This document shows, one piece after another, positions 46,183 to 61,037 of a DNA stretch of 64,000 nucleotides. The stretch's first letter is position 1. Each line of letters opens with the position of its first letter. A program made the translations under genes and the position numbers. The DNA comes from Sedimentisphaerales bacterium (GTDB lineage Bacteria > Planctomycetota > Phycisphaerae > Sedimentisphaerales > SM23-30), in assembly GCA_028281535.1 (NCBI GenBank), contig JANQJS010000048.1, positions 1 to 64,000 on the forward strand, read 5' to 3'. A model generated the notes under the pieces. The model did not search any database. It saw only the letters and a list, made by a program, of their open reading frames with translations, and was not told the DNA's origin.

Positions 46183-46232
46183 AAAAGCGGGTGATGGGAA
46201 TCGAACCCACACAACCAGCTTGGAAGGCTGGG
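46183..46232 (+). repeat. attL: copy of tRNA-Gly 3' segment
   Basis: A 50-bp copy of 60767-60816 with one mismatch (A for G in ACAC-AACC) and one base slip in the A run at its edge. It corresponds to the 3' end of tRNA-Gly(TCC) as far as the anticodon arm and is the left junction of the island. Confidence 0.85.
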
Positions 46233-48027: not shown

Positions 48028-49845
48028 CTATTGCGGCAAAAGAATACACGGATCAACTATTGGTGTTAGTATGGTTGTATGACTCTTTGCACGTGTAATA
48101 CTAACACGAAAATTTTGCTTAGCCTGTTCAAGGTTTTGTGATGATGAATTACCAATAACAATGCGTCCAGGATTAGATATAATTCTACGTGATTTATATC
48201 TTGGCCAACCTTCAAAGATTATTACTTCATCAAACTGTTTTCCTTTTGCTTTATGCATATTCATAACTACAACACCAGATTCTGGTTTCCATGCATTAGC
48301 AAAATGTTCCTGAACAAATGAGCGGCGAACTATTTCCAATGCATTCTCATAACATTTTGAATCGCGCCAAGTTTCTGCCAGGGCAGCTCGAAGTTGTGTG
48401 CCACGATCAAGGAGACGTAAATTTCTCGCTTCTTCAGCCACTACTTTTAGTTGTTTACAGACTCCATTTTCAAGCTGATTTCGAATTGCACGCCAATCTT
48501 TGTCAGGGTCACCAGTCAATTCAATTGTACGGACTGATCGGTAAGTTGAAATCATCTTTTGGATTATGCTTCCTTTATCAATTTTCTTTCCTTCAGATCG
48601 TTTTTTTCTAGCTTTTACAAAAGCTGCTTTAATTTTTTCAGACTCTTCTAAATTTCCTTTAGTTGGAGTATCTCCTCCTTTTCCCTCGTAAAAATTACAA
48701 ACAAGCTGTACAAATCGACCAAAATCACCTTTTGCCGCCTTTGGTTGAAGTAAAAACGAAATAATTTCCGCAGCAAGAACTACTGCCTCAATGTCAATAT
48801 TTGCAGAATGTTCGATACTCGTCATTGCATCTTGTTTTGCTCGCAGATAATCTGAAACGGCTCTAGTCATTTTTTTTGTTGGAACTAATATTGCCAATGA
48901 CCAATCACTTTTTCCGCTATCAATTAAACGTTTTCTAGCTTGAAAAACATGTCCCTTAAGAGTTGCAAATGCTTGATTTTGATTTGCATTGAAAGCTGTT
49001 ATAGTAATTCCATCATATTCTTTCTGACTATAGCTCTCTTTCAACATATCATTTGCAAACTGAAGTATTTGTGTCCCAATACTGCGAAAGTTATCATCGC
49101 TCAAATCAAATTGACATGGTTGAAATCCCTGTATGTAGTGATTGATTCGTTCAGGATCAGCACCCATAAACTCATAAATACGCTGTTCAGGGTCTGCAAG
49201 TGCAATAATTTCACTGTTTTCACCTAATGCTTTTACCACATCCCATTGACTTGTATTGGTATCCTGAAATTCATCAAGAATAATATATGGGTATGCATTA
49301 CTGATTAATTTACGAATTTTACTACTTCCTTGAAGTATTTTCCCAGCTATATCTGCAAATAATTCAAAACACACTTTTCCATCTTCATAGGATAAACGTT
49401 CGCGCTCTTCTAATTCTCGCCTTGCCTTTTCTTGTTTTTCTTCATCTGTAATAGTTGAATCATTAGGATAGTCATTTCTTATAGATGCCAATGCAATCGC
49501 TTCCTCAGCTGGTGTGAGAAGTGATATTTTTTTAGGAAGCCCCAATAGATATCCATGTGTTCTGATCAGCCTCCAGAAAAAGGCATGATATGTGTCAACT
49601 ATAATATGTTTTTTCTCTTCTTTACTTAGTGCCTTTGTTTCATCGAGTGCTTCAACAATCCTTGCAACAGATGGCCGAGCAAAACTTAGAAAAATAATTT
49701 TCTGGGAAAGTGTAAGGTTATTAGTTATAATCTCCCCTGCTTTTAATATAGCAATTGTCGTTTTTCCCGAACCTGGGCCTCCTACTATAAGCAAATTTCC
49801 TGTAGCGCTTATAATTTTTTTCTGTTCATTTGAAAGATCAATCAA
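48028..49845 (-). CDS. gajB: UvrD-like helicase, GajB-type
   Basis: An SF1A helicase of 605 residues. Walker A is GGPGSGKTTIAILKA near residue 20, motif II DEFQDTNTSQWDVV, motif III-like ALADPEQRIYEFMGAD, and the C-terminal helicase motifs VVVMNMHKAKGKQFDEVIIF and RVSITRAKS. I place the start at TTG 49845: AGGAGG lies 12 nt upstream and the start overlaps the GajA stop by 8 nt. An upstream GTG (49908) would extend it by 21 residues that look out of family. It follows the OLD nuclease gene as in Gabija systems. The size is somewhat above typical GajB. Confidence 0.82.
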   Translation of the reverse strand: MIDLSNEQKKIISATGNLLIVGGPGSGKTTIAILKAGEIITNNLTLSQKIIFLSFARPSVARIVEALDETKALSKEEKKHIIVDTYHAFFWRLIRTHGYLLGLPKKISLLTPAEEAIALASIRNDYPNDSTITDEEKQEKARRELEERERLSYEDGKVCFELFADIAGKILQGSSKIRKLISNAYPYIILDEFQDTNTSQWDVVKALGENSEIIALADPEQRIYEFMGADPERINHYIQGFQPCQFDLSDDNFRSIGTQILQFANDMLKESYSQKEYDGITITAFNANQNQAFATLKGHVFQARKRLIDSGKSDWSLAILVPTKKMTRAVSDYLRAKQDAMTSIEHSANIDIEAVVLAAEIISFLLQPKAAKGDFGRFVQLVCNFYEGKGGDTPTKGNLEESEKIKAAFVKARKKRSEGKKIDKGSIIQKMISTYRSVRTIELTGDPDKDWRAIRNQLENGVCKQLKVVAEEARNLRLLDRGTQLRAALAETWRDSKCYENALEIVRRSFVQEHFANAWKPESGVVVMNMHKAKGKQFDEVIIFEGWPRYKSRRIISNPGRIVIGNSSSQNLEQAKQNFRVSITRAKSHTTILTPIVDPCILLPQ

Positions 49846-51610
49846 TATCTGAAATATCCTCCTCTGAGTCTTCCTCTTCTCCTTTCTCTTCTTCATTATC
49901 AGGCTCACAAATGCTTTTTAATTTAATACATGTTTTCCTGATCCAATCAGGAATTTCATTTTCTTCACACATGTATAAGAATTCTGCAACAACACCTCCA
50001 CCTTTAGAACGCTTAAAATATTCAAACAAAGCATTTTTAGCGTCAGATTTAGGGTTAGGAAATTTAGATTGTAAATCTGAAGGCCAGTTAATTTCATCGA
50101 GATAACGATCCATCGCCGCTTGAGTGGTATTATTCAACACTAATTTTTCAAGTCCACTTTCGCTATGCATGTATAATTCATCAACTGAGGTCTTAATTTT
50201 TGCTTCACTTGGGGCATCTTGCTTATCACACAGTGCATATACTTGCTTTCCTAGTTGACGATATAAGTTTGCTAAATCAGAAATTTGTGAATCACTACCA
50301 GCATCGATCGTACATATCCCCAGGGCTTCCAATGGAGAATATTTATCTGAATCAATTTCGGATAACCTAAGTGCGACAGTTGGAAAAGCAGATGTCTCTG
50401 TTGCTCCTTCAGCAAGCAAAATTCTTCTTGAAAGTAATCCTTCACAAAAACGGGTCCGAAATTCTCTTTTATAGCGTCGTTGTTTTATACTTCCTGGGAG
50501 TGTGACTGAAGATTGAATTAGATTGCCATCAGTCTGCCTTGTAAGAATAACTGTTTCCTCCAGATCAAATTCTTCTATTACATATGGTGAATGTGAAGTA
50601 AAAAGGGATTGTGTTGATAGTTTTCTTACTTCATGTACTATTCTTTTTTGTGCATAAGGAGGAATCGCTGTTTCAGGCTCCTCCATAGCAAAAACTATGT
50701 TTTGTTTGTCCTGGGCTATTTGTGAAAGCATGGCAAGAACAAGTAAATTTATAGTCCCTGTCCCTTGCCTATAAAAAGGAGCTGCATGGTCACCTTCTCC
50801 GGTCGCAATAAAAGATGTTATCACTTTTCTCAAGTGTTCTCGAGTAAGGTTGGATACTTTTAAATGCGGTGAAACTCCCCACTCTTTAGGAACATATTTC
50901 TTGATTGACTTTTCTATACTTTCGAGAATTCCAGATATCCCTACCTCCGGGTCACTAGCAACTTCATGTTCAGCTATAACATTAATTGTTTTTTCCCACA
51001 TTTGAGGACGAATCTCTTTAATTCGCAAAATGATATCAAGGAGACTTCCACGCTCTAAACTTAATGCACGTGACCCTGTGCGTAATGATCTCAGATATAG
51101 AAACCCACAAATCTGTTTATCTTTTTTCCTGAAATCCTTTCTTTCTCCGTCTTCATCACTTTTTGGAAAATACGTTTGGCCAACAAAATCATCTTCTTCC
51201 TCATCGTAAGAACCGGAGAAAGATACACGCATAGCGGGAATAATATTGTCAGAGTCAACTGTTCCTGGGGGAGGTGACACATGAAGTTCGCTTTTCTCAA
51301 TATCCCACCATTCGATATAATCTATGAAGTGACTTTGCTGCTCTTGATTTAGATTTGTTATTGTTGCTTCAATGTAGATTTCAGGGGCATCCTCTTCATC
51401 TCTCGATTGATACTCTCCGAGATAAAAATCATGCTCATCGATAATGGGTCTTCTATTAAGACGTTCAGGTCCTAAGACTAAATCTAACGCTTCAAAAACC
51501 GTCGACTTTCCAACATTATTATCACCAATTAAAACTACATTGTCAGGAAGAAACAACTCTGCATTTTTGACACCTCTAAAGTTATTAATCATAAGTTTAC
51601 ATATTTTCAA
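49838..51610 (-). CDS. gajA: OLD-family ATPase with TOPRIM nuclease, GajA-type
   Basis: This 590-residue protein has an ABC-type ATPase N-terminus (GDNNVGKSTVFEALDLVLG near residue 32, ATPase signature region and FAMEEPETAIPPYAQKR for Walker B) and a C-terminal TOPRIM domain (LLAEGATETSAFP, then CTIDAGSDSQ and YALCDKQDAP). The order and the neighbouring UvrD-like helicase define a class 2 OLD protein, the GajA subunit of Gabija anti-phage systems, which cuts DNA when nucleotides fall. The start is a TTG with GGAGG 9 nt upstream. The acidic tail (EEKGEEEDSEEDISDID) is unusual. Confidence 0.85.
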   Translation of the reverse strand: MKICKLMINNFRGVKNAELFLPDNVVLIGDNNVGKSTVFEALDLVLGPERLNRRPIIDEHDFYLGEYQSRDEEDAPEIYIEATITNLNQEQQSHFIDYIEWWDIEKSELHVSPPPGTVDSDNIIPAMRVSFSGSYDEEEDDFVGQTYFPKSDEDGERKDFRKKDKQICGFLYLRSLRTGSRALSLERGSLLDIILRIKEIRPQMWEKTINVIAEHEVASDPEVGISGILESIEKSIKKYVPKEWGVSPHLKVSNLTREHLRKVITSFIATGEGDHAAPFYRQGTGTINLLVLAMLSQIAQDKQNIVFAMEEPETAIPPYAQKRIVHEVRKLSTQSLFTSHSPYVIEEFDLEETVILTRQTDGNLIQSSVTLPGSIKQRRYKREFRTRFCEGLLSRRILLAEGATETSAFPTVALRLSEIDSDKYSPLEALGICTIDAGSDSQISDLANLYRQLGKQVYALCDKQDAPSEAKIKTSVDELYMHSESGLEKLVLNNTTQAAMDRYLDEINWPSDLQSKFPNPKSDAKNALFEYFKRSKGGGVVAEFLYMCEENEIPDWIRKTCIKLKSICEPDNEEEKGEEEDSEEDISDID

Positions 51611-51793
51611 ACTTTAGCACCTCCCATTTATATATTTAAAATAAGCATCAGGATTATCGGGTATTCTAATTGGCTTTTGGCCAGACTAAGTAAACCCATG
51701 AATTAAATTGTTCTGGTAGTTTAGCCGAACAATTAGGACCATTATATATATATTTCATAACTATCAAATGTCATACAACTAAATTAATATTTA

Positions 51794-54700
51794 TTATTCA
51801 CTACATATTATATCAAGATTTATGCCTAGGGTTTGCTTTAAATAAGCATCAGCTGCACCTAAAACGACTGACTGGTCACGGGTAATATTATTCTTTAAAA
51901 TACCAGGTTGAACTATTAAAATTTCAGGTCTGACTTCTTTGAATCTATAAGATCGCAAAAGTGTTGTTAAACTAGATGAAGTTCCTACAAGAAAACCTGT
52001 TCTATCTGGGTTATCATGATGGCGTTTTTCCCGATTATGTATGTGTTTAATTAACTCCTTGAATTTACCAGGCCAACGTGCAGATCGAATAGCTTGCGAA
52101 GCTACTTCAACAACATCCTTAACCCTTGCACCTCCTTGAGGACCACCTGAAAACTTGCAATGAACAAGATCAAGGCGTATATAGTCATTTTCTTCTTTAA
52201 AACATATTAGGTCCGCTGCTTCGCCAGTATCATCATCATCATACACTACCGAGTATCCACCATCGATAAAATACTGTGCAGTTTTCCATTGTATGGAATC
52301 TGTTCGCTTCTCACTATTTTTCCAGATTGATTCTTTGGTAATATCAGTTGATGTCCAATTCCAGGATTCAAAACGTGTATTAGGAATTTCTACAGTTCCA
52401 GCATCTTCAGATCGTAATAAAATATTTCCATCTAATTCAGATAGATCAATGAAACGAATAAGAGGAGGGTAATCATTGAAGAAAGCTGATAAATCACCTT
52501 CAGAAGCTCCAATTTTAATCTGAGGTATTGGGTCGCTTAGACATTCGATATCAAATCCTTCTTCTCCCTTGACATTCATTGAGAAACGCCCCAAAGAAAT
52601 ATGCTCTTCGCTAGTTATGATTTCAAATTCAATTTTATTTTCGTCTTGGTTAATTTCAATACAAATAATATCTGTAATAAATATCTCATACTCACATTCA
52701 TTTACTACTAACGACACTTTGTCTTCGGATTGACTTAGAATTTCATTAGGCCAATCTATGCATAGCACACCACAGTCAGGCAATTCAATGGCATATTCAG
52801 GAATTAAGACATTTGCAATTACTGCTCGAGTATCTATGGTAGTATCTATTAATTTTTCACCAATATTATGTGCCCATTTCAAAAAATGCGGTATTGTTCC
52901 AGCAGCTTTAGACCAAACACGACCTTTATATGAACAGCCAATTGTAATCTGCTTGCCATTTTCCCATCCATAACCACTAATATTTGATTTTCTAGAACCT
53001 TTTTTCTCCGTTTCACTTAATGCTTGCTTAACATCTGCACCAGTATACATAGCAAAACTCAAATTTCGTCTTCCATGTTTAGTAACTCCAAGGTTATTAA
53101 AAACTAATCTTCCTATATTACCCAAAGACTTGAACATATCCTCACCGACGATTTGTCTTGTTGCTCCAACAGATTTCGCTAATCCTTCAAAATTTGATGA
53201 TTTGCTTGTTGATGCAACGTATAAAAGCCCAAGCTCTACATCATGATGCAAAACGAAGAGGTGCCACTCAACATGTTTCTCTTCTTTTGTATTTGACCAT
53301 TTTACTCGCTCTGTTAGCCTTGTAATAAAATATAGTGTTTTATTTTCCTCATTTATCCATACTCGAATTATTTCATAACGATCAGAAAGTCCGTTGACAA
53401 ATTTTTTAGGGCGAAATGAATTACATTGATAAAATAGAGTACTAAAAGTTGGGCGAAGGGAATTTTGAGAAATGCCATAAACTTCTTCATCTTTTACTTT
53501 ATAAGGTTTCGAATTTTCAAGAAAATGTATAAACTCTGCATGTTCCTTGGCTGCTGCTGAACTCATTTCACGAAGCAAGATATTCCAATCAGCATCTTCA
53601 CTGTAAAGCCGTTCTAGTGCAGTGGAAATGTTTGGGTTAGCTATGTTAGCAACCACACTTGCGTCACTTAATTTTTCATCGCCATTACGAGTAAAACGAC
53701 CAATGAATTGGAGTAAAACGGCAAGGCTTTGATGCATATCATGAATTGCAGCTATTTTCAGTGCAGGAATATCAACACCTTCGCCTAACATATTAACACA
53801 AACAACTATCTTTGCTTCACCCGATCTTACTTTTTTAACACGCTCATCATTATCTTTAATATTAGAATGTATAAGAATAGGATTTAGATCGGGTGCTTTG
53901 TTGTTATATAGTTCAATTATCTCTTCAGCTCGCTCCTTTGAACTACATCTTGCCATCAATTGATGGGGATGGCCACTCGCAATATCAGATTGTAACTGCT
54001 GTATTGCAGCATCAGCAATTGTTTGATCAGCAATGTCATAATTAAGCTCATGAACAGGAACAAAATTGATTTTCTTGAAATAATTATCTTTTTGTGCAGA
54101 TTTTAGAGGATAGTTATATATAACAGTTCCATCTACAAGCTTACCATCATTACGAAATGGTGTCGCAGTAAATTGAATAACAGGTTTTTTGAGAAACGCA
54201 GATTTAAGATCGCTCCAAGTTTTAGCTGCAACATGATGAGCTTCATCAACAATTAAAACATCAATTATTTTTGCAATTTTACTATGATAGTCGCTGGCAG
54301 TCCCACCTGAAAGAGATGAAACCACCCCAACAACAACATTACAATCACGAAATATTTTAAGATCTTCTTCTGATTTAGGACGCCTTTTAACAACACCAAC
54401 AACTGGATATATTATATTGTGAGGTAATACACCTAAATGTTTCAGCATTCCAAACGTCTCAAATTTTTCAGATATTTGAGTTCTAAGGGCTATACTTGGA
54501 ACAGCCACAAGCAATCTTTTAATTTGATGGGCTGCTGTTATAGCTAACATAGTTTCAGTTTTTCCAGTCCCTGTCGGCATAATAATAGTTGCAGGAGATT
54601 TAGATAAGCTCCAATGAGCCCCTACTGAAAAGAGAGCTCCTAACTGTGGTGGTCGCAATCCCAAATCTTCAGGAGAACGCACAGGTGATTTTTCAGCTCT

Positions 54701-55087
54701 GTAATTCAGCTTATTTTTCCAGCTATTTGTTATATTAGAAAGATATGTAGCCATCCCTAGAGTAGTAATTTTCTCATTCACGTCGTCCAGAAAGCGATGA
54801 GACAGCCATTCATAAGATCCAGGAGAAGATTCATATAAAACCCCATCAATATCTTCAGGCCTTATTATCTTTTTTCTCTTGGTTAATATAATACGTTCAT
54901 CATTATTAAATAACACAAAGCATTCTTTTACTCTAGGTGATATATTAACCTCTCCATGCTCAATAACTTCTAAATTTTCAGAGGCACGTAATAATTGATA
55001 AACATCACCAATACTGTATTTCTTTTGACACATTAGTAGCGCAGGAACTTGTATATGATTTGGAATAGAAGAATTGGCTTCTTGCAC
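51794..55087 (-). CDS. SF2 helicase with C-terminal PD-(D/E)xK-like nuclease
   Basis: A 1097-residue protein. After a ~165-residue N-terminal region comes an SF2 helicase: motif I MPTGTGKTETML, motif II VDEAHHVAAKTW, motif III FTATPFRND, motif V NMLGEGVDIPAL and motif VI QFIGRFTR. Long middle regions (about 530-900) are unassigned. Near 950-990 a nuclease-like pattern is seen: DDTGEAADLICF, then IRLDLVHCKFSGG, with D and (D/E)xK-type residues. The start is a GTG after AAGGGG. It is the first gene of the defence operon, 183 bp before the OLD gene. It is not part of known two-gene Gabija and may be a third component or its own restriction system. Confidence 0.8.
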   Translation of the reverse strand: MQEANSSIPNHIQVPALLMCQKKYSIGDVYQLLRASENLEVIEHGEVNISPRVKECFVLFNNDERIILTKRKKIIRPEDIDGVLYESSPGSYEWLSHRFLDDVNEKITTLGMATYLSNITNSWKNKLNYRAEKSPVRSPEDLGLRPPQLGALFSVGAHWSLSKSPATIIMPTGTGKTETMLAITAAHQIKRLLVAVPSIALRTQISEKFETFGMLKHLGVLPHNIIYPVVGVVKRRPKSEEDLKIFRDCNVVVGVVSSLSGGTASDYHSKIAKIIDVLIVDEAHHVAAKTWSDLKSAFLKKPVIQFTATPFRNDGKLVDGTVIYNYPLKSAQKDNYFKKINFVPVHELNYDIADQTIADAAIQQLQSDIASGHPHQLMARCSSKERAEEIIELYNNKAPDLNPILIHSNIKDNDERVKKVRSGEAKIVVCVNMLGEGVDIPALKIAAIHDMHQSLAVLLQFIGRFTRNGDEKLSDASVVANIANPNISTALERLYSEDADWNILLREMSSAAAKEHAEFIHFLENSKPYKVKDEEVYGISQNSLRPTFSTLFYQCNSFRPKKFVNGLSDRYEIIRVWINEENKTLYFITRLTERVKWSNTKEEKHVEWHLFVLHHDVELGLLYVASTSKSSNFEGLAKSVGATRQIVGEDMFKSLGNIGRLVFNNLGVTKHGRRNLSFAMYTGADVKQALSETEKKGSRKSNISGYGWENGKQITIGCSYKGRVWSKAAGTIPHFLKWAHNIGEKLIDTTIDTRAVIANVLIPEYAIELPDCGVLCIDWPNEILSQSEDKVSLVVNECEYEIFITDIICIEINQDENKIEFEIITSEEHISLGRFSMNVKGEEGFDIECLSDPIPQIKIGASEGDLSAFFNDYPPLIRFIDLSELDGNILLRSEDAGTVEIPNTRFESWNWTSTDITKESIWKNSEKRTDSIQWKTAQYFIDGGYSVVYDDDDTGEAADLICFKEENDYIRLDLVHCKFSGGPQGGARVKDVVEVASQAIRSARWPGKFKELIKHIHNREKRHHDNPDRTGFLVGTSSSLTTLLRSYRFKEVRPEILIVQPGILKNNITRDQSVVLGAADAYLKQTLGINLDIICSE

Positions 55088-55862
55088 TATTTACCCCTTA
55101 AATTGACACAAATTAAAAATATTCCACTAAGCAATACATTATATAAGAAATTATCTAATATAATAATAATAAATAGATATTAGATAATTTTACTTCATCA
55201 ATAATTTATCTTGAGAAACACCTACACTTTCCTCACATATTCCATTACACATCAACACTTTACAGGATATTTACAAATTCCCTTAAACAACGTAATCTGA
55301 AAGTAATATTAGCACCAGATTGACCTGTAATTTAGAGTAAATCCATATGGTTCTATATAATTCTAAATTTCACCTTGATTATTAAAGAAAATACGACTGG
55401 CCTGCACCCCAAAATCTGATCCAGTTTAAATGAGAGTTTAACCTGATATTTGTCATTCTTAAGTAAAAAATACAACCATTACTCCTCAACCTATTTATAT
55501 AATAACATTTTCTTTTTAAAATAATTTAAGGATTTTATTTTTAGACTCACTTCACTTTGATTTACATTTAGGGTGGTAACATGTGAGTACACTAATTCAA
55601 CATTTTTTACTTGAATCCCACTTATAGTATTTCTAATATAAATTTAAGCCGACAGAAAAGTGGCTTGAGTCTTCGAGTTGAACACAACGAAATAGCAACG
55701 TATGCTGTTCATACCGTGGAGGCCAAGGACCATATTCTTAGGGGGCTTCGTAACGCTTCAACGCTCCAATGTTCCAATGATTCAATATTTTAATTTTTGT
55801 TTACCACAAATGGTTTGTGCTAATCGTTTGTATTTATTTCAACAACATGAAAGGATTTTATC
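55088..55862. other. Gene-free AT-rich stretch in the island
   Basis: This 775-bp stretch separates the leftward defence operon from the rightward regulator and must hold both promoters. At 55395-55425 a sequence reading CTGGCCTGCACCCCAAAATC resembles the ends of IS3-family elements; a similar one is at 44951. A frame at 55611-55793 has no support. Confidence 0.5.
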
Positions 55863-56399
55863 ATGAATATTCAAAATGCGAATATTATAAACGCCGTTAT
55901 ATGGAGAAGATCTAATAATATAATTCCAGTATATGCAACTGAGAATACAAATTTATTAGAAGATCTGATTAAACTTCTTAAGAAGATGTTTTCGGTAGAA
56001 GTTGATGATCACATATATGAATTTAATTATTGCTTAAACCACGAAATCGATTCTGTTTCAAAATTTCGCGATCTTAAAATTATTGATTCCTCTTCAGGAT
56101 TATTTAGAGAAATTCGAAATTTTGCTCAGGAGTATGAAGATCATATAGCTTCGCATTCAAATCAATTAATTACAGATGAAAAATGTTTAAAAGTATTGTC
56201 AGAAATCTATAACTCAAATGTTGCTCTGGTGATAGTAGACATTGCTATACAAACCGGGATCAGTGATAAAACTGTTGGCAAGAAAATCAAGGAACTGATT
56301 AATCATAACTTGGTTCATAGGCCAAATGGTAAACGAAAAGGTATCTTAATTACTCAAAAAGGAAAAAATTTAATTGAAAAATATAGGTCGTCATCTTAA
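55863..56399 (+). CDS. Winged-helix regulator-like protein
   Basis: A 178-residue protein. The C-terminal ~70 residues fit a winged helix: IYNSNVALVIVDIAIQTGIS, DKTVGKKIKELINHNLV, then the wing HRPNGKRKGILITQKGKNLIEK. The N-terminal half has two helices and a strand pattern without named homologue, possibly a sensor domain. A ribosome site (AAAGGA) supports the ATG. It is divergent from the defence operon across 775 bp and may regulate the operon or the element's replication genes. Confidence 0.7.
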   Translation: MNIQNANIINAVIWRRSNNIIPVYATENTNLLEDLIKLLKKMFSVEVDDHIYEFNYCLNHEIDSVSKFRDLKIIDSSSGLFREIRNFAQEYEDHIASHSNQLITDEKCLKVLSEIYNSNVALVIVDIAIQTGISDKTVGKKIKELINHNLVHRPNGKRKGILITQKGKNLIEKYRSSS

Positions 56400-56439: not shown

Positions 56440-56487
56440 AAACACCCCTGAAATTAAGAGTTGAAGCTCGATTCCAGGGGTGTTTTA
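56440..56487 (+). terminator. Rho-independent terminator
   Basis: AACACCCCTG (56441-56450) and CAGGGGTGTT (56475-56484) with a 24-nt loop and TTTT. It ends the winged-helix gene transcript. Confidence 0.75.
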
Positions 56488-56586
56488 TTCACTTTATTAA
56501 TCGCAAAACAGTTACTTCCGACTAAATTCTGCTTAATTCCCTCATCACTACGCACTGTCAATTTTATCAAAAAGTATGCTATATCC

Positions 56587-56778
56587 ATGCTTGATAAAAA
56601 TTATAACAACTCCATGCTAACTCCTGCCGAATTTGCTCGGTTGCTTAATATCAGCCGCCGTACATTTCAAACCTGGCGAGCAGCAGGAAAACTCCCCTCC
56701 CCTGACTTACAAATCGGCAAAGTAATCCGATGGAAAACTGAAACTATTAACGAATGGATAAAAAGTAATCACAAATAA
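56587..56778 (+). CDS. AlpA/excisionase-like DNA-binding protein
   Basis: A 63-residue protein from ATG 56587 (54 from 56614). It is a MerR/AlpA-type helix-turn-helix: TPAEFARLLNISRRTFQTWR, AAGKLPSPDLQIGKVIRWK and TINEWIKS. In P4-like elements such proteins are regulators of the integrase or excisionases. It stands 14 bp before the primase gene, so they are probably cotranscribed. The frame is open upstream to 56461, but that start overlaps a terminator. Confidence 0.8.
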   Translation: MLDKNYNNSMLTPAEFARLLNISRRTFQTWRAAGKLPSPDLQIGKVIRWKTETINEWIKSNHK

Positions 56779-56792
56779 GGAGTATACTATTA

Positions 56793-58973
56793 ATGAAAAA
56801 AAGACCGATACATGTAATTTTAGAAAACTTACAAGGTGTTGAACCTTGTGGAGATGGCTATAAGGCTCTTTGCCCAGCACATCATGACACTAATCCTAGT
56901 TTGAGCATCTGTGAAAGTGAGGGCAGATGGGTCAAAATGTATTGCCATGCCGGATGTCTATATGAAGATATATTAAAAGCAATGGGGATATCTTACAATG
57001 ATCTCTACACTTACAGTAAAAAAGCAAAACCAAAAGCTAAAATAATAGCAACTTATGATTACGTAGATGAAAATGGCAAACTTATATTCCAAGTAGTTCG
57101 CTATGAACCGAAAAATTTTAAACAGCGTCGCCCTGGAGTTAAAAGAAAATGGATTTTTAATCTTCAGGGAGTGAATCGAGTTTTATTTAATCTCCCTAAC
57201 TTAATTGAGGCAAATACCGATGATTATATTTTTGTTGTAGAAGGTGAAAAAGACGTTGAAACATTAAAGCGAAATGGGCTTGTCGCAACAACCTGTTCAG
57301 GTGGTGCAAACAAATGGCATTTAGTAGACTCGAGCCCTCTTCATGGCAAGAAAATCATAATTTTACCAGACAATGACAAAGCAGGTGTAAATCATGCTCA
57401 TAAAATCGCTGCGTCGCTTCATGATCAAGTAAAAGAATTGAAAATTCTCGCCTTGCCAGATCTTCCTGAAAAAGGTGATGTGACGGATTGGTTTAATAGC
57501 GGAGGTATTAAGAGTGATTTGTTAAAACTAGTTGATGAAGCAGAGAACTTTGATTCTTCGACTTTAGAATCGGAAAATTCTAAAGATAAAATATTAACAC
57601 TTGATCCACAAGACCCGTATCCGACCGCTCTCACATTTATTGATAGCTTATTTATGAAAGATGGCTGTAGAACTTTGCATTATTATGCAGGCAGCTTTTA
57701 TTTGTTTGAAAGTAATAGGTATATCGAGATAGAGACAGACCAAATGAATAATATATTGTACAACTTTTTAAGCACTGCGATAACGCCTTATACGGATGAT
57801 GATGGCAACCCTAAACCTTTTAAGCCAAACACATCGAAGATCAACGACATTCTCAATGCATTGAGAGCTATAGTATTAATCACTAAAGACAAGAGGCCTC
57901 CATTATGGCTTACAGAAGGAAATCATCCAGATCCAACTGTCATTTTGCCAACAAAAAGCCTTCTATTAAATCTTAACACTTTTGAGTCAACGCCTTTGAC
58001 TCCCGCCTTTTTTACAATGTGTAGTCTTGATTATGAATATAAGCCAGAATCATCACCTCCTGAAAAATGGATCGAATTTCTAAATTCGCTTTGGCCAGAT
58101 GATCCCGATGCAATTTTGCTATTGCAAGAATGGTTTGGTTATTGCTTAACACCAGATACACGCAGACACAAAATGTTGTTAATCGTCGGGCCACCGAGGT
58201 CGGGCAAAGGCACAATTTCGAGGATTTTATCAGCCTTAGTTGGTGACGGAAATGTCGCTCGCCCGGTCTTAGATGCATTTGGATCAACTTTCGGCTTGTC
58301 AGGATTAATAGGTAAAACTCTTGCGATAATTTCAGACGCCAGACTCGGAGGCCAACAAAATGCTATAAAGGAAAGATTGCTTAATATAAGCGGTGAAGAT
58401 CCAATCACAATTGATCGCAAATACAAAGACCCGATGGAATATAAACTGTTTTGTAGAATAATGATGGCAACAAATGAGCTTCCTGCATTTCGTGAAGATA
58501 GTAGTGCATTGCCTTCAAGATTTCTTGGGCTTAAAATCAACCGTTCCTTCTTAAACAAAGAAGATATTTCCTTAGAAGAAAAGTTGCGAACTGAGCTCCC
58601 AGATATTTTAAATTGGGCAATTGAAGGTTATCGTCGTCTCAAAAAGAATGACCAGTTTACTATACCTCAATCATCAAAAAATCTTCAAGAAGAATTGATT
58701 AAAGTATTTAATCCGATCGCAGTATTTGTTGAAGAGTGTTGTGTCGTTGATAATAACGAATTCGTGTATTGCAAAATGCTTTATCATGAATATGTAGATT
58801 GGTGCAACGAAAATAAATATACGCACCACAGAAGCATCAATCATTTTGGTAAATCACTACAAGCATATTTGCCACAAATAAGAGTTGAACGAGACACAGC
58901 ATTACCAACACGCCCTACAATCTATTATGGCATAGGTCTCAGAAATGATCATAAGGAAGATGATGAATTCTAG
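56793..58973 (+). CDS. P4-type primase-helicase
   Basis: A 726-residue replication protein. The N-terminal zinc ribbon is ALCPAHHDTNPSLSI and YCHAGC, followed by a TOPRIM primase core (FVVEGEKDVETLKR, IILPDNDKAG). The C-terminal SF3 helicase has Walker A VGPPRSGKGTISRIL near 455, AIISDARLGG and MATNELPAF. The architecture equals that of P4 alpha-like or D5-like primases of satellites and plasmids. It suggests that the excised element replicates autonomously. The ribosome site is AAGGAG at 56777-56782. Confidence 0.9.
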   Translation: MKKRPIHVILENLQGVEPCGDGYKALCPAHHDTNPSLSICESEGRWVKMYCHAGCLYEDILKAMGISYNDLYTYSKKAKPKAKIIATYDYVDENGKLIFQVVRYEPKNFKQRRPGVKRKWIFNLQGVNRVLFNLPNLIEANTDDYIFVVEGEKDVETLKRNGLVATTCSGGANKWHLVDSSPLHGKKIIILPDNDKAGVNHAHKIAASLHDQVKELKILALPDLPEKGDVTDWFNSGGIKSDLLKLVDEAENFDSSTLESENSKDKILTLDPQDPYPTALTFIDSLFMKDGCRTLHYYAGSFYLFESNRYIEIETDQMNNILYNFLSTAITPYTDDDGNPKPFKPNTSKINDILNALRAIVLITKDKRPPLWLTEGNHPDPTVILPTKSLLLNLNTFESTPLTPAFFTMCSLDYEYKPESSPPEKWIEFLNSLWPDDPDAILLLQEWFGYCLTPDTRRHKMLLIVGPPRSGKGTISRILSALVGDGNVARPVLDAFGSTFGLSGLIGKTLAIISDARLGGQQNAIKERLLNISGEDPITIDRKYKDPMEYKLFCRIMMATNELPAFREDSSALPSRFLGLKINRSFLNKEDISLEEKLRTELPDILNWAIEGYRRLKKNDQFTIPQSSKNLQEELIKVFNPIAVFVEECCVVDNNEFVYCKMLYHEYVDWCNENKYTHHRSINHFGKSLQAYLPQIRVERDTALPTRPTIYYGIGLRNDHKEDDEF

Positions 58974-59097: not shown

Positions 59098-59381
59098 AAA
59101 TCTAGATTACTGTCAAAAAGCAGTAAAATGGTCAGAGCAGCTAATAACATTATACATGCTACCAAACCGGCTTTAATAAATACTGACCACCACGGATGGC
59201 TTAGGGCGTTTTAGGTACGAATTATTAACAACCATAACTTATTGAATAGCGATTACTTACGACACTCATAAGCAGTGTCATTTTTACGTAAATTGTTTTG
59301 CAACAAATAGTTATATGTATTATAATTCACATACGCAATGTATTGTTTGTATTAAAATTGAAACATAGGATTCATCAGATA

Positions 59382-61037
59382 ATGGCAAGTATTTTTAAAC
59401 GCAAATCAAATAGAAATCGAAAAGATAAACCTTGGATGATTTCTTATACTGACGAAAACGGTATTCGCAAAACAATAACCGGCTCTACTGACAAAGCTGT
59501 AACGAAAGAGATAGCTCGCGCGCGAGAAGCTGAAGTTTCACGCCGAAAGCATGGTATTACGAATGCCGCGGATGACCAATATAATCACCAAGGAAGCCGC
59601 CCAATTAATAATCATGTTGATGAGTATATTGGACATTGTAATCATGTGGGAATGTCAGAATGCACCGTTGGCATGAAAATCAAGCATATCAATGAAATGA
59701 TTAATTACACCAAAGCAAATCGGCTTGCAGATGTAGAATCTAATTCTGTAGGAAACTATTTACAAAACCTCAAAGAATCTGGCAAGTCTGCACGTACAGT
59801 CAATCACTATCGATCAGATATCAATGCTTTCGTTAATTGGTGTGTCAAAAAGGGAAGAATCAGAAACAATCCTATCGCTTCAATCCCTAAGCTGAACGAG
59901 CAAGAAGACCGCAGACGCATTAGGCGAGCCCTAACGAACGAAGAACTAACTTATTTTCTCAAAGCAGTATCACAAATAGATAAAAATAATACGGACCTCT
60001 ATCCTCCACGATATCCAATCTATTTTCTCGCTGCAATGACGGGACTTAGAAGAAAAGAATTGAAGCAACTCACATGGAAAGATGTCGATTTTGATAAATC
60101 CTCGATTACGATCAATGCTCAGATAAGTAAAGCTAAACGAGAGGACATCCTTCCCTTACACAAACAGGTTTTAGATACACTTTCAGAGATTAAACCAGTT
60201 AGCTTAAACACAAATTCAAAAATCTTTCAAAACATACCCACGATAGAGACTTTTTACAAAGACCTTACTAGGGCTCGCCGATCCTGGATTAATGAATCTG
60301 CTAATGCGACAGAAAAATTAGAACGTGAAAAATCAGATTTCCTTCGCAAAAAAGATTCTACAGGAAAAGTTGTCGACCTTCACGCCATGCGTACAACATT
60401 GGGAACAAATCTTGCTTTAGAGGGAATTGCTCCCCAAATCGCTCAAAAAATTATGCGGCATAGTGATTACAGAACAACGCTATCACATTACACCATACTA
60501 GGCCTAGCAGACACATCTAAAGCCATTAACAGCCTACCGGAGGTAAACATTAAAAAACAGCAGCAACAAAAGCTGGCAACAGGCACCGAAGGGCGCGCAG
60601 CGCATTTGACAGCGCGCATGCCGCAAAACCCTGCAATTTGCCGCACTGACATGCAACAACCAAACAAAAATAAAACGATAAAACATAAAGGTAATAAAGA
60701 ACAGTATCTGCCTGGAGAGACAAAGGATAGCGCTGAATTGCAAAGTGATGCGCCGACTAAAAAAGAAAAAGCGGGTGATGGGAATCGAACCCACACGACC
60801 AGCTTGGAAGGCTGGGGCTCTACCATTGAGCTACACCCGCATTTTAACAAAATGCAGATCCAGAGAATAGCCGTTTTAAGAGGCTTTGTCAAACACAATT
60901 ATCACCGATTGAATCGCCTCATTTCACGCTCGGTATCGCGTTTCATCTGGTCCTTTTTAAGTTTATCACGCTTATCTGCATGTGACTTACCCGTTGCCAG
61001 CGCAATCTCAATTTTAGCTTTACCGCGATTGAAATAA
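59382..61037 (+). CDS. Tyrosine recombinase (integrase) spanning the attachment site
   Basis: The start is ATG 59382 (ASIFKRKSNRN), as the open frame upstream lacks family resemblance. N-terminal core-binding segment about 70-180 (SECTVGMKIKHINEMINYTK). The catalytic domain has TGLRRKELKQLTWKDV, the beta-hairpin Lys region KAKREDILPLH, DLHAMRTTLGTNLALEG (HxxR), MRHSDYRTT and the nucleophile in LSHYTILG. After residue ~400 a low-complexity tail reads through the tRNA-Gly and antisense to smpB. In the circle this tail would be replaced by that at 46233. The integrated form has 551 residues. Confidence 0.85.
   Translation: MASIFKRKSNRNRKDKPWMISYTDENGIRKTITGSTDKAVTKEIARAREAEVSRRKHGITNAADDQYNHQGSRPINNHVDEYIGHCNHVGMSECTVGMKIKHINEMINYTKANRLADVESNSVGNYLQNLKESGKSARTVNHYRSDINAFVNWCVKKGRIRNNPIASIPKLNEQEDRRRIRRALTNEELTYFLKAVSQIDKNNTDLYPPRYPIYFLAAMTGLRRKELKQLTWKDVDFDKSSITINAQISKAKREDILPLHKQVLDTLSEIKPVSLNTNSKIFQNIPTIETFYKDLTRARRSWINESANATEKLEREKSDFLRKKDSTGKVVDLHAMRTTLGTNLALEGIAPQIAQKIMRHSDYRTTLSHYTILGLADTSKAINSLPEVNIKKQQQQKLATGTEGRAAHLTARMPQNPAICRTDMQQPNKNKTIKHKGNKEQYLPGETKDSAELQSDAPTKKEKAGDGNRTHTTSLEGWGSTIELHPHFNKMQIQRIAVLRGFVKHNYHRLNRLISRSVSRFIWSFLSLSRLSACDLPVASAISILALPRLK
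60767..60816 (+). repeat. attR: 3' part of tRNA-Gly
   Basis: The right copy of the 50-bp repeat, forming the 3' part of the intact tRNA-Gly. The integrase is 5' to it on the plus strand, as usual for tRNA-integrated elements. Confidence 0.85.
60770..60840 (-). tRNA. tRNA-Gly (anticodon TCC)
   Basis: Acceptor GCGGGTG/CACCCGC, D arm GCTC-AATGGTA-GAGC, anticodon arm CCAGC-CTTCCAA-GCTGG with TCC, T arm GTGGG-TTCGATT-CCCAT and discriminator T. It stays intact after integration because the island carries the 3' portion. It lies just after smpB on the same strand. Confidence 0.95.

Follow-up and report, generated by a model that had tools for sequence, protein, structure and literature searches.

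A tRNA-Gly-integrated island carrying a canonical two-gene Gabija system next to a probably standalone helicase-nuclease

In a contig of a Sedimentisphaerales bacterium (JANQJS010000048.1, positions 1 to 64,000; the whole analysed stretch of 64,000 nucleotides is called the window here), a gene for a large helicase precedes a gajA-gajB pair on the same strand. This arrangement raises the question whether Gabija has acquired a third component in this lineage, as proposed in the initial annotation, or whether two unrelated cargo genes were placed side by side. The features of the locus are collected in Table 1.

Table 1. Features of the island and their coordinates in the window.
Feature	Position	Strand	Basis or remark
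att-like 50-bp direct repeat, left island end, partial tRNA-Gly copy	46183..46232	.	repeat comparison
gajB, UvrD-like SF1 helicase of Gabija	48028..49908	-	PADLOC PDLC00104, E 1.1e-223
gajA, OLD-type ATPase + TOPRIM nuclease of Gabija	49838..51610	-	PADLOC PDLC00086, E 4.4e-257
1097-aa SF2 (ResIII-type) helicase with C-terminal PD-(D/E)XK-like nuclease	51794..55087	-	standalone family; GTG start
winged-HTH protein, divergent from helicase gene	55863..56399	+	weak profile matches
HTH_17 (excisionase/AlpA-like) protein	56461..56778	+	Pfam
P4-family primase/helicase (TOPRIM + D5-like)	56793..58973	+	TIGR01613, 182 bits, above cut-off; phrog_6088, E 2e-107
tyrosine recombinase/integrase	59298..61037	+	Pfam Phage_integrase, E 8e-16
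att-like 50-bp direct repeat, right island end, inside tRNA-Gly	60767..60816	.	repeat comparison
tRNA-Gly (tcc), integration target, intact	60770..60840	-	tRNA search

The genes are located on a 14.6-kb element that is integrated in tRNA-Gly and flanked by 50-bp direct repeats (98%). The repeats, the tRNA-Gly, the integrase and the P4-family primase confirm that this is a mobile island, as first annotated. The accompanying statement that the island is otherwise limited to genes of replication and integration is almost right; it also contains two HTH genes and a pair of small orphan genes. No methyltransferase, HsdM or HsdS gene was found in the island, and an Rfam search of it returned the tRNA alone plus one sub-threshold match. 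The integrase ORF crosses the att site and the antisense strand of tRNA-Gly, which suggests that host sequence supplied its C-terminal tail upon integration. Between the helicase and the winged-HTH genes lies an AT-rich gap of 775 bp without a long ORF (55088-55862), a 60-bp part of which is 80% identical to one other genome site; an Rfam search of this gap gave no match.

Both Gabija ORFs are intact and overlap each other. GajA combines an OLD-type ATPase with a TOPRIM domain (motifs GDNNVGKS at residue 29, EEPE at 310 and TOPRIM DKQD at 462), and directly downstream GajB shows the motifs of a UvrD-like helicase (GGPGSGKT at 43, LDEFQDT at 211, HKAKGKQF at 552), its conservation beginning at about residue 22. 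The start codon of gajA is TTG, with GGGAGGTG just ahead. Profile scores, motifs and ORF overlap agree with the earlier identification of this pair as GajA and GajB in the Gabija arrangement. The island gajAB is a full and ordinary member of the PDLC00086/PDLC00104 subfamily of PADLOC, and its GajA has low sequence similarity to structurally solved GajA (best E 1.2e-4). Gabija was proposed to target linear DNA without RecBCD protection (PMC12407980, preprint). The Gabija system on the island is an ordinary, canonical two-gene system, for which anti-phage activity is predicted. A natural fusion of the two proteins was observed on a Robbsia andropogonis plasmid (NZ_CP139167.1; L188:8001-11579), where a single 1192-aa ORF comprises GajA in residues 1-589 (E 3e-227) and GajB in residues 608-1187 (E 9e-251).

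The ORF and motifs of the upstream gene bear out its first description as a 1097-residue SF2 helicase with a PD-(D/E)XK-like tail, encoded on the same strand and separated from gajA by 183 bp. The 1097-codon ORF is intact; AAGGGG stands in front of its GTG start, and a homologue (L020) aligns from residue 1. Pfam domains (ResIII, DEAD, Helicase_C) are confined to the N-terminal half, where the SF2 core (approximately residues 140-475) carries PTGTGKT (171), DEAHH (281), TATPF (307) and QFIGRFTR (460). Profile and fold comparisons place this core close to RadD, XPB, Mfd and the motor subunits of restriction systems. For the C-terminal half (~560 residues), Pfam offered no credible family, a sequence search of the PDB found nothing even at E<=1, and a PDB fold search gave no match at E<=0.001. 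The AlphaFold2 model has a pLDDT of 87.5 for the whole protein and of 92.2 for residues 535-1097. Within the tail (approximately residues 930-1097), the nuclease-like motifs GEAADL (955) and VHCKFS (975) make up a PD-(D/E)XK-type motif, E956..D959-x16-H976-x-K978..Q998. In an alignment of 62 proteins Q933, E956, D959, H976, K978, Q998 and W1005 are invariant and the helicase motifs are also kept, and the order of the elements is seen in AlphaFold2 models. The best PD-(D/E)XK fold match was FokI (E 0.19, probability 0.44), in a search whose model included the middle domains. Motif and predicted topology together support the assignment of the tail as a putative PD-(D/E)XK-type nuclease. A weak fold match of the C-terminal half to CENP-L/N was also noted. 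In a viral fold library the beta-rich middle region (residues 535-900) matched, among others, RdgC-like phage proteins, but weakly (E 7e-4 to 2e-2, low TM); profile-profile comparison with seven RdgC proteins yielded a probability of 1%, so the resemblance to RdgC is no more than a lead.

Bacteria and some archaeal MAGs carry relatives of the helicase-nuclease, frequently in the vicinity of defence genes. Plasmid records covering at least 80% of the protein number 54, a scan of GTDB genomes gave at least 560 stretches encoding relatives (the best 80 of these were used), and 17 of 5426 complete E. coli genomes carry the gene, 14 of them at full length. The family tree intermixes phyla, and the nearest relative of the window protein comes from a Hyphomonadaceae MAG (60%). 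The gene occurs solo or, in a tally without control genes, next to defence genes of several kinds: those for type I R-M in Vibrio and E. coli, BREX in Sinorhizobium, CBASS and AbiEii in Roseovarius and, immediately upstream at single loci each, DrmMI, HmaC, type IIG or a DpdF-like gene. No neighbour conserved across the family was found, and matches to ZacC noted among the neighbours did not recur when large upstream genes were rescanned singly. Taken together, the distribution suggests cargo that spreads by horizontal transfer and most likely serves defence. The family is absent from PADLOC-DB 2023, and neither the family nor its accessions are mentioned in the literature searched, which lay outside subscription papers and supplements.

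Two types of neighbourhood stand out. At two E. coli loci (L198:12001-16688 and L016:8363-13062), type I R-M genes are followed by the helicase-nuclease and then by a conserved ~417-aa protein with no Pfam match; a gap of 12 bp to hsdS was seen in E. coli. At five alphaproteobacterial loci (L014, L082, L092, L093, L095), the helicase-nuclease is the last gene after an AddB-like PD-(D/E)XK protein and an AddA-like UvrD-PD-(D/E)XK protein, with domains assigned on L092. A divergent WYL regulator is present in all four loci that reach far enough (L093 is truncated at the left). This arrangement is a genuine candidate for a multi-nuclease operon.

Could the helicase-nuclease be an accessory effector that plugs into varied defence loci, especially methylation-based ones, and that newly joined Gabija here in a real, lineage-specific cooperation? 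Its repeated position beside HsdRMS, BREX, DrmMI, type IIG and Hma genes, and its tight operon with the AddAB-like pair, are what such an effector would show. However, most helicase loci have no such partner, the island is without a methyltransferase, and defence genes generally cluster, so adjacency alone is no proof of function; we consider this reading unlikely. We regard it as similarly improbable that the protein serves mobile elements in DNA repair or plasmid maintenance and has no part in defence. The proximity of its SF2 core to the XPB, RadD and Mfd repair helicases and its presence on plasmids and islands would fit this role, but its patchy occurrence in E. coli, its spread across phyla against taxonomy and the frequent adjacency of defence genes speak against it.

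In the 183-bp gap between the helicase gene and gajA, no terminator-like or promoter-like site was found on the coding strand. Given the common strand and the short distance, co-transcription and local interaction are possible. The helicase gene may therefore share a transcript with gajAB, but its function is probably independent of them. Co-occurrence was missing in both directions. The GajA of the window was found near none of 93 helicase loci from about 17 phyla (eight plasmid loci, the best 80 of at least 560 from GTDB and five from the window's phylum), in a sequence search limited to the window's GajA subfamily and with short flanks at some loci. In tblastn against the 88 plasmid and GTDB loci, which would miss distant Gabija variants (~20% identity), the window itself was the sole match; the five further loci belong to genomes without the window's GajA subfamily. 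Conversely, GajB accompanies GajA in all 18 other loci of this subfamily (from Alpha-, Beta- and Gammaproteobacteria, Bacillota, Actinomycetota and the window's own phylum), and the helicase was present in the flanks of none of the 18, even at E<=1. When whole plasmids or genomes were searched, G427 alone had both, on different contigs: the helicase was detected in this one of the 18 GajA records, and the window's GajA subfamily in one of 34 helicase-bearing genomes. Among 392 genomes of the window's phylum, three have GajA and six have the helicase, and a single one (G000) has both. A scan of viral contigs with GajA alone gave no match.

From this survey it follows that the conjunction of helicase and GajA in the window is local, and the claim of an extended or new three-gene system is abandoned: within the GajA subfamily searched, the helicase family occurs almost always without GajA and GajB, and the upstream helicase is no conserved component of Gabija. 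A role of the helicase-nuclease as a third subunit of Gabija, feeding or processing DNA for GajAB, is highly improbable despite the common strand, the short gap and the presence of two further DNA-processing enzymes in this operon, because the two are not co-conserved in either direction, gajAB of the same subfamily is complete elsewhere as a two-gene unit (once as the single fused ORF), and Gabija is known to form a GajA4:GajB4 complex (PMC10822852).

The best explanation of the locus, to which we assign a probability of roughly 80%, is a tRNA-Gly-integrated, P4-primase-type island with two independent cargoes in tandem, canonical gajAB and, standing on its own, an ATP-dependent SF2 helicase-nuclease. 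The latter probably acts on its own, driven by ATP, in defence. The ResIII/XPB/RadD-like motor would bind invading DNA and translocate along it, the beta-rich N-terminal and middle regions would select the substrate, possibly by ends, forks or modification state, and the C-terminal E..D..HxK centre would cleave the DNA as in type I/III R subunits, SauUSI or Hna. One may speculate that two co-resident DNA-processing defences could add cover. More tentatively, and with some doubt on our side, the 1097-aa family might be a widespread, undescribed single-gene anti-phage system that unites a RadD/XPB-like motor, an uncharacterised beta-rich middle and an HxK-type nuclease in one chain, and that also serves R-M, BREX and AddAB-like operons as a swappable effector module. 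With the false lead of a three-gene Gabija removed, this unnamed family, whose C-terminal half is without a significant Pfam or PDB relative, is the sole notable part of the locus, and it is readily testable as a single gene.

Several known systems combine a helicase with a nuclease. Hachiman (HamAB) is such an anti-phage module (PMC12278908). The 1097-aa protein would likewise combine both activities; in Hachiman, however, they are divided between two proteins, HamA and HamB. No HamA or HamB profile is among the 20 PADLOC families that were listed for the 1097-aa protein, and it has neither the HamA partner nor the HamB profile of a Hachiman member. An identity as type I R subunit was rejected on the hsdR profile TIGR00348 (20.7 bits against a cut-off of 284.6) and the missing HsdM/S genes. 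In SauUSI and the type I and III motor subunits, as in this protein, a ResIII-type motor powered by ATP is coupled to a nuclease (profile match to SauUSI 7clg; fold matches to 7clg, EcoR124I HsdR and LlaBIII), but here the nuclease is C-terminal with an HxK motif, and the protein needs neither a methyltransferase nor a specificity partner. Hna, like the 1097-aa protein, is a single chain with an N-terminal SF2 helicase and a C-terminal PD-(D/E)XK nuclease (PMC13381803). Hna is DinG/XPD-like and has 845 aa (PMC13381803), whereas the protein described here has 1097 aa, a ResIII/RadD/XPB-like core and, separating this core from the nuclease, ~450 additional residues; length and helicase class rule out that the two are identical. 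Although it lacks tested membership features of each of these systems, the helicase-nuclease may, by analogy, work like Hna or like ATP-dependent restriction motors.
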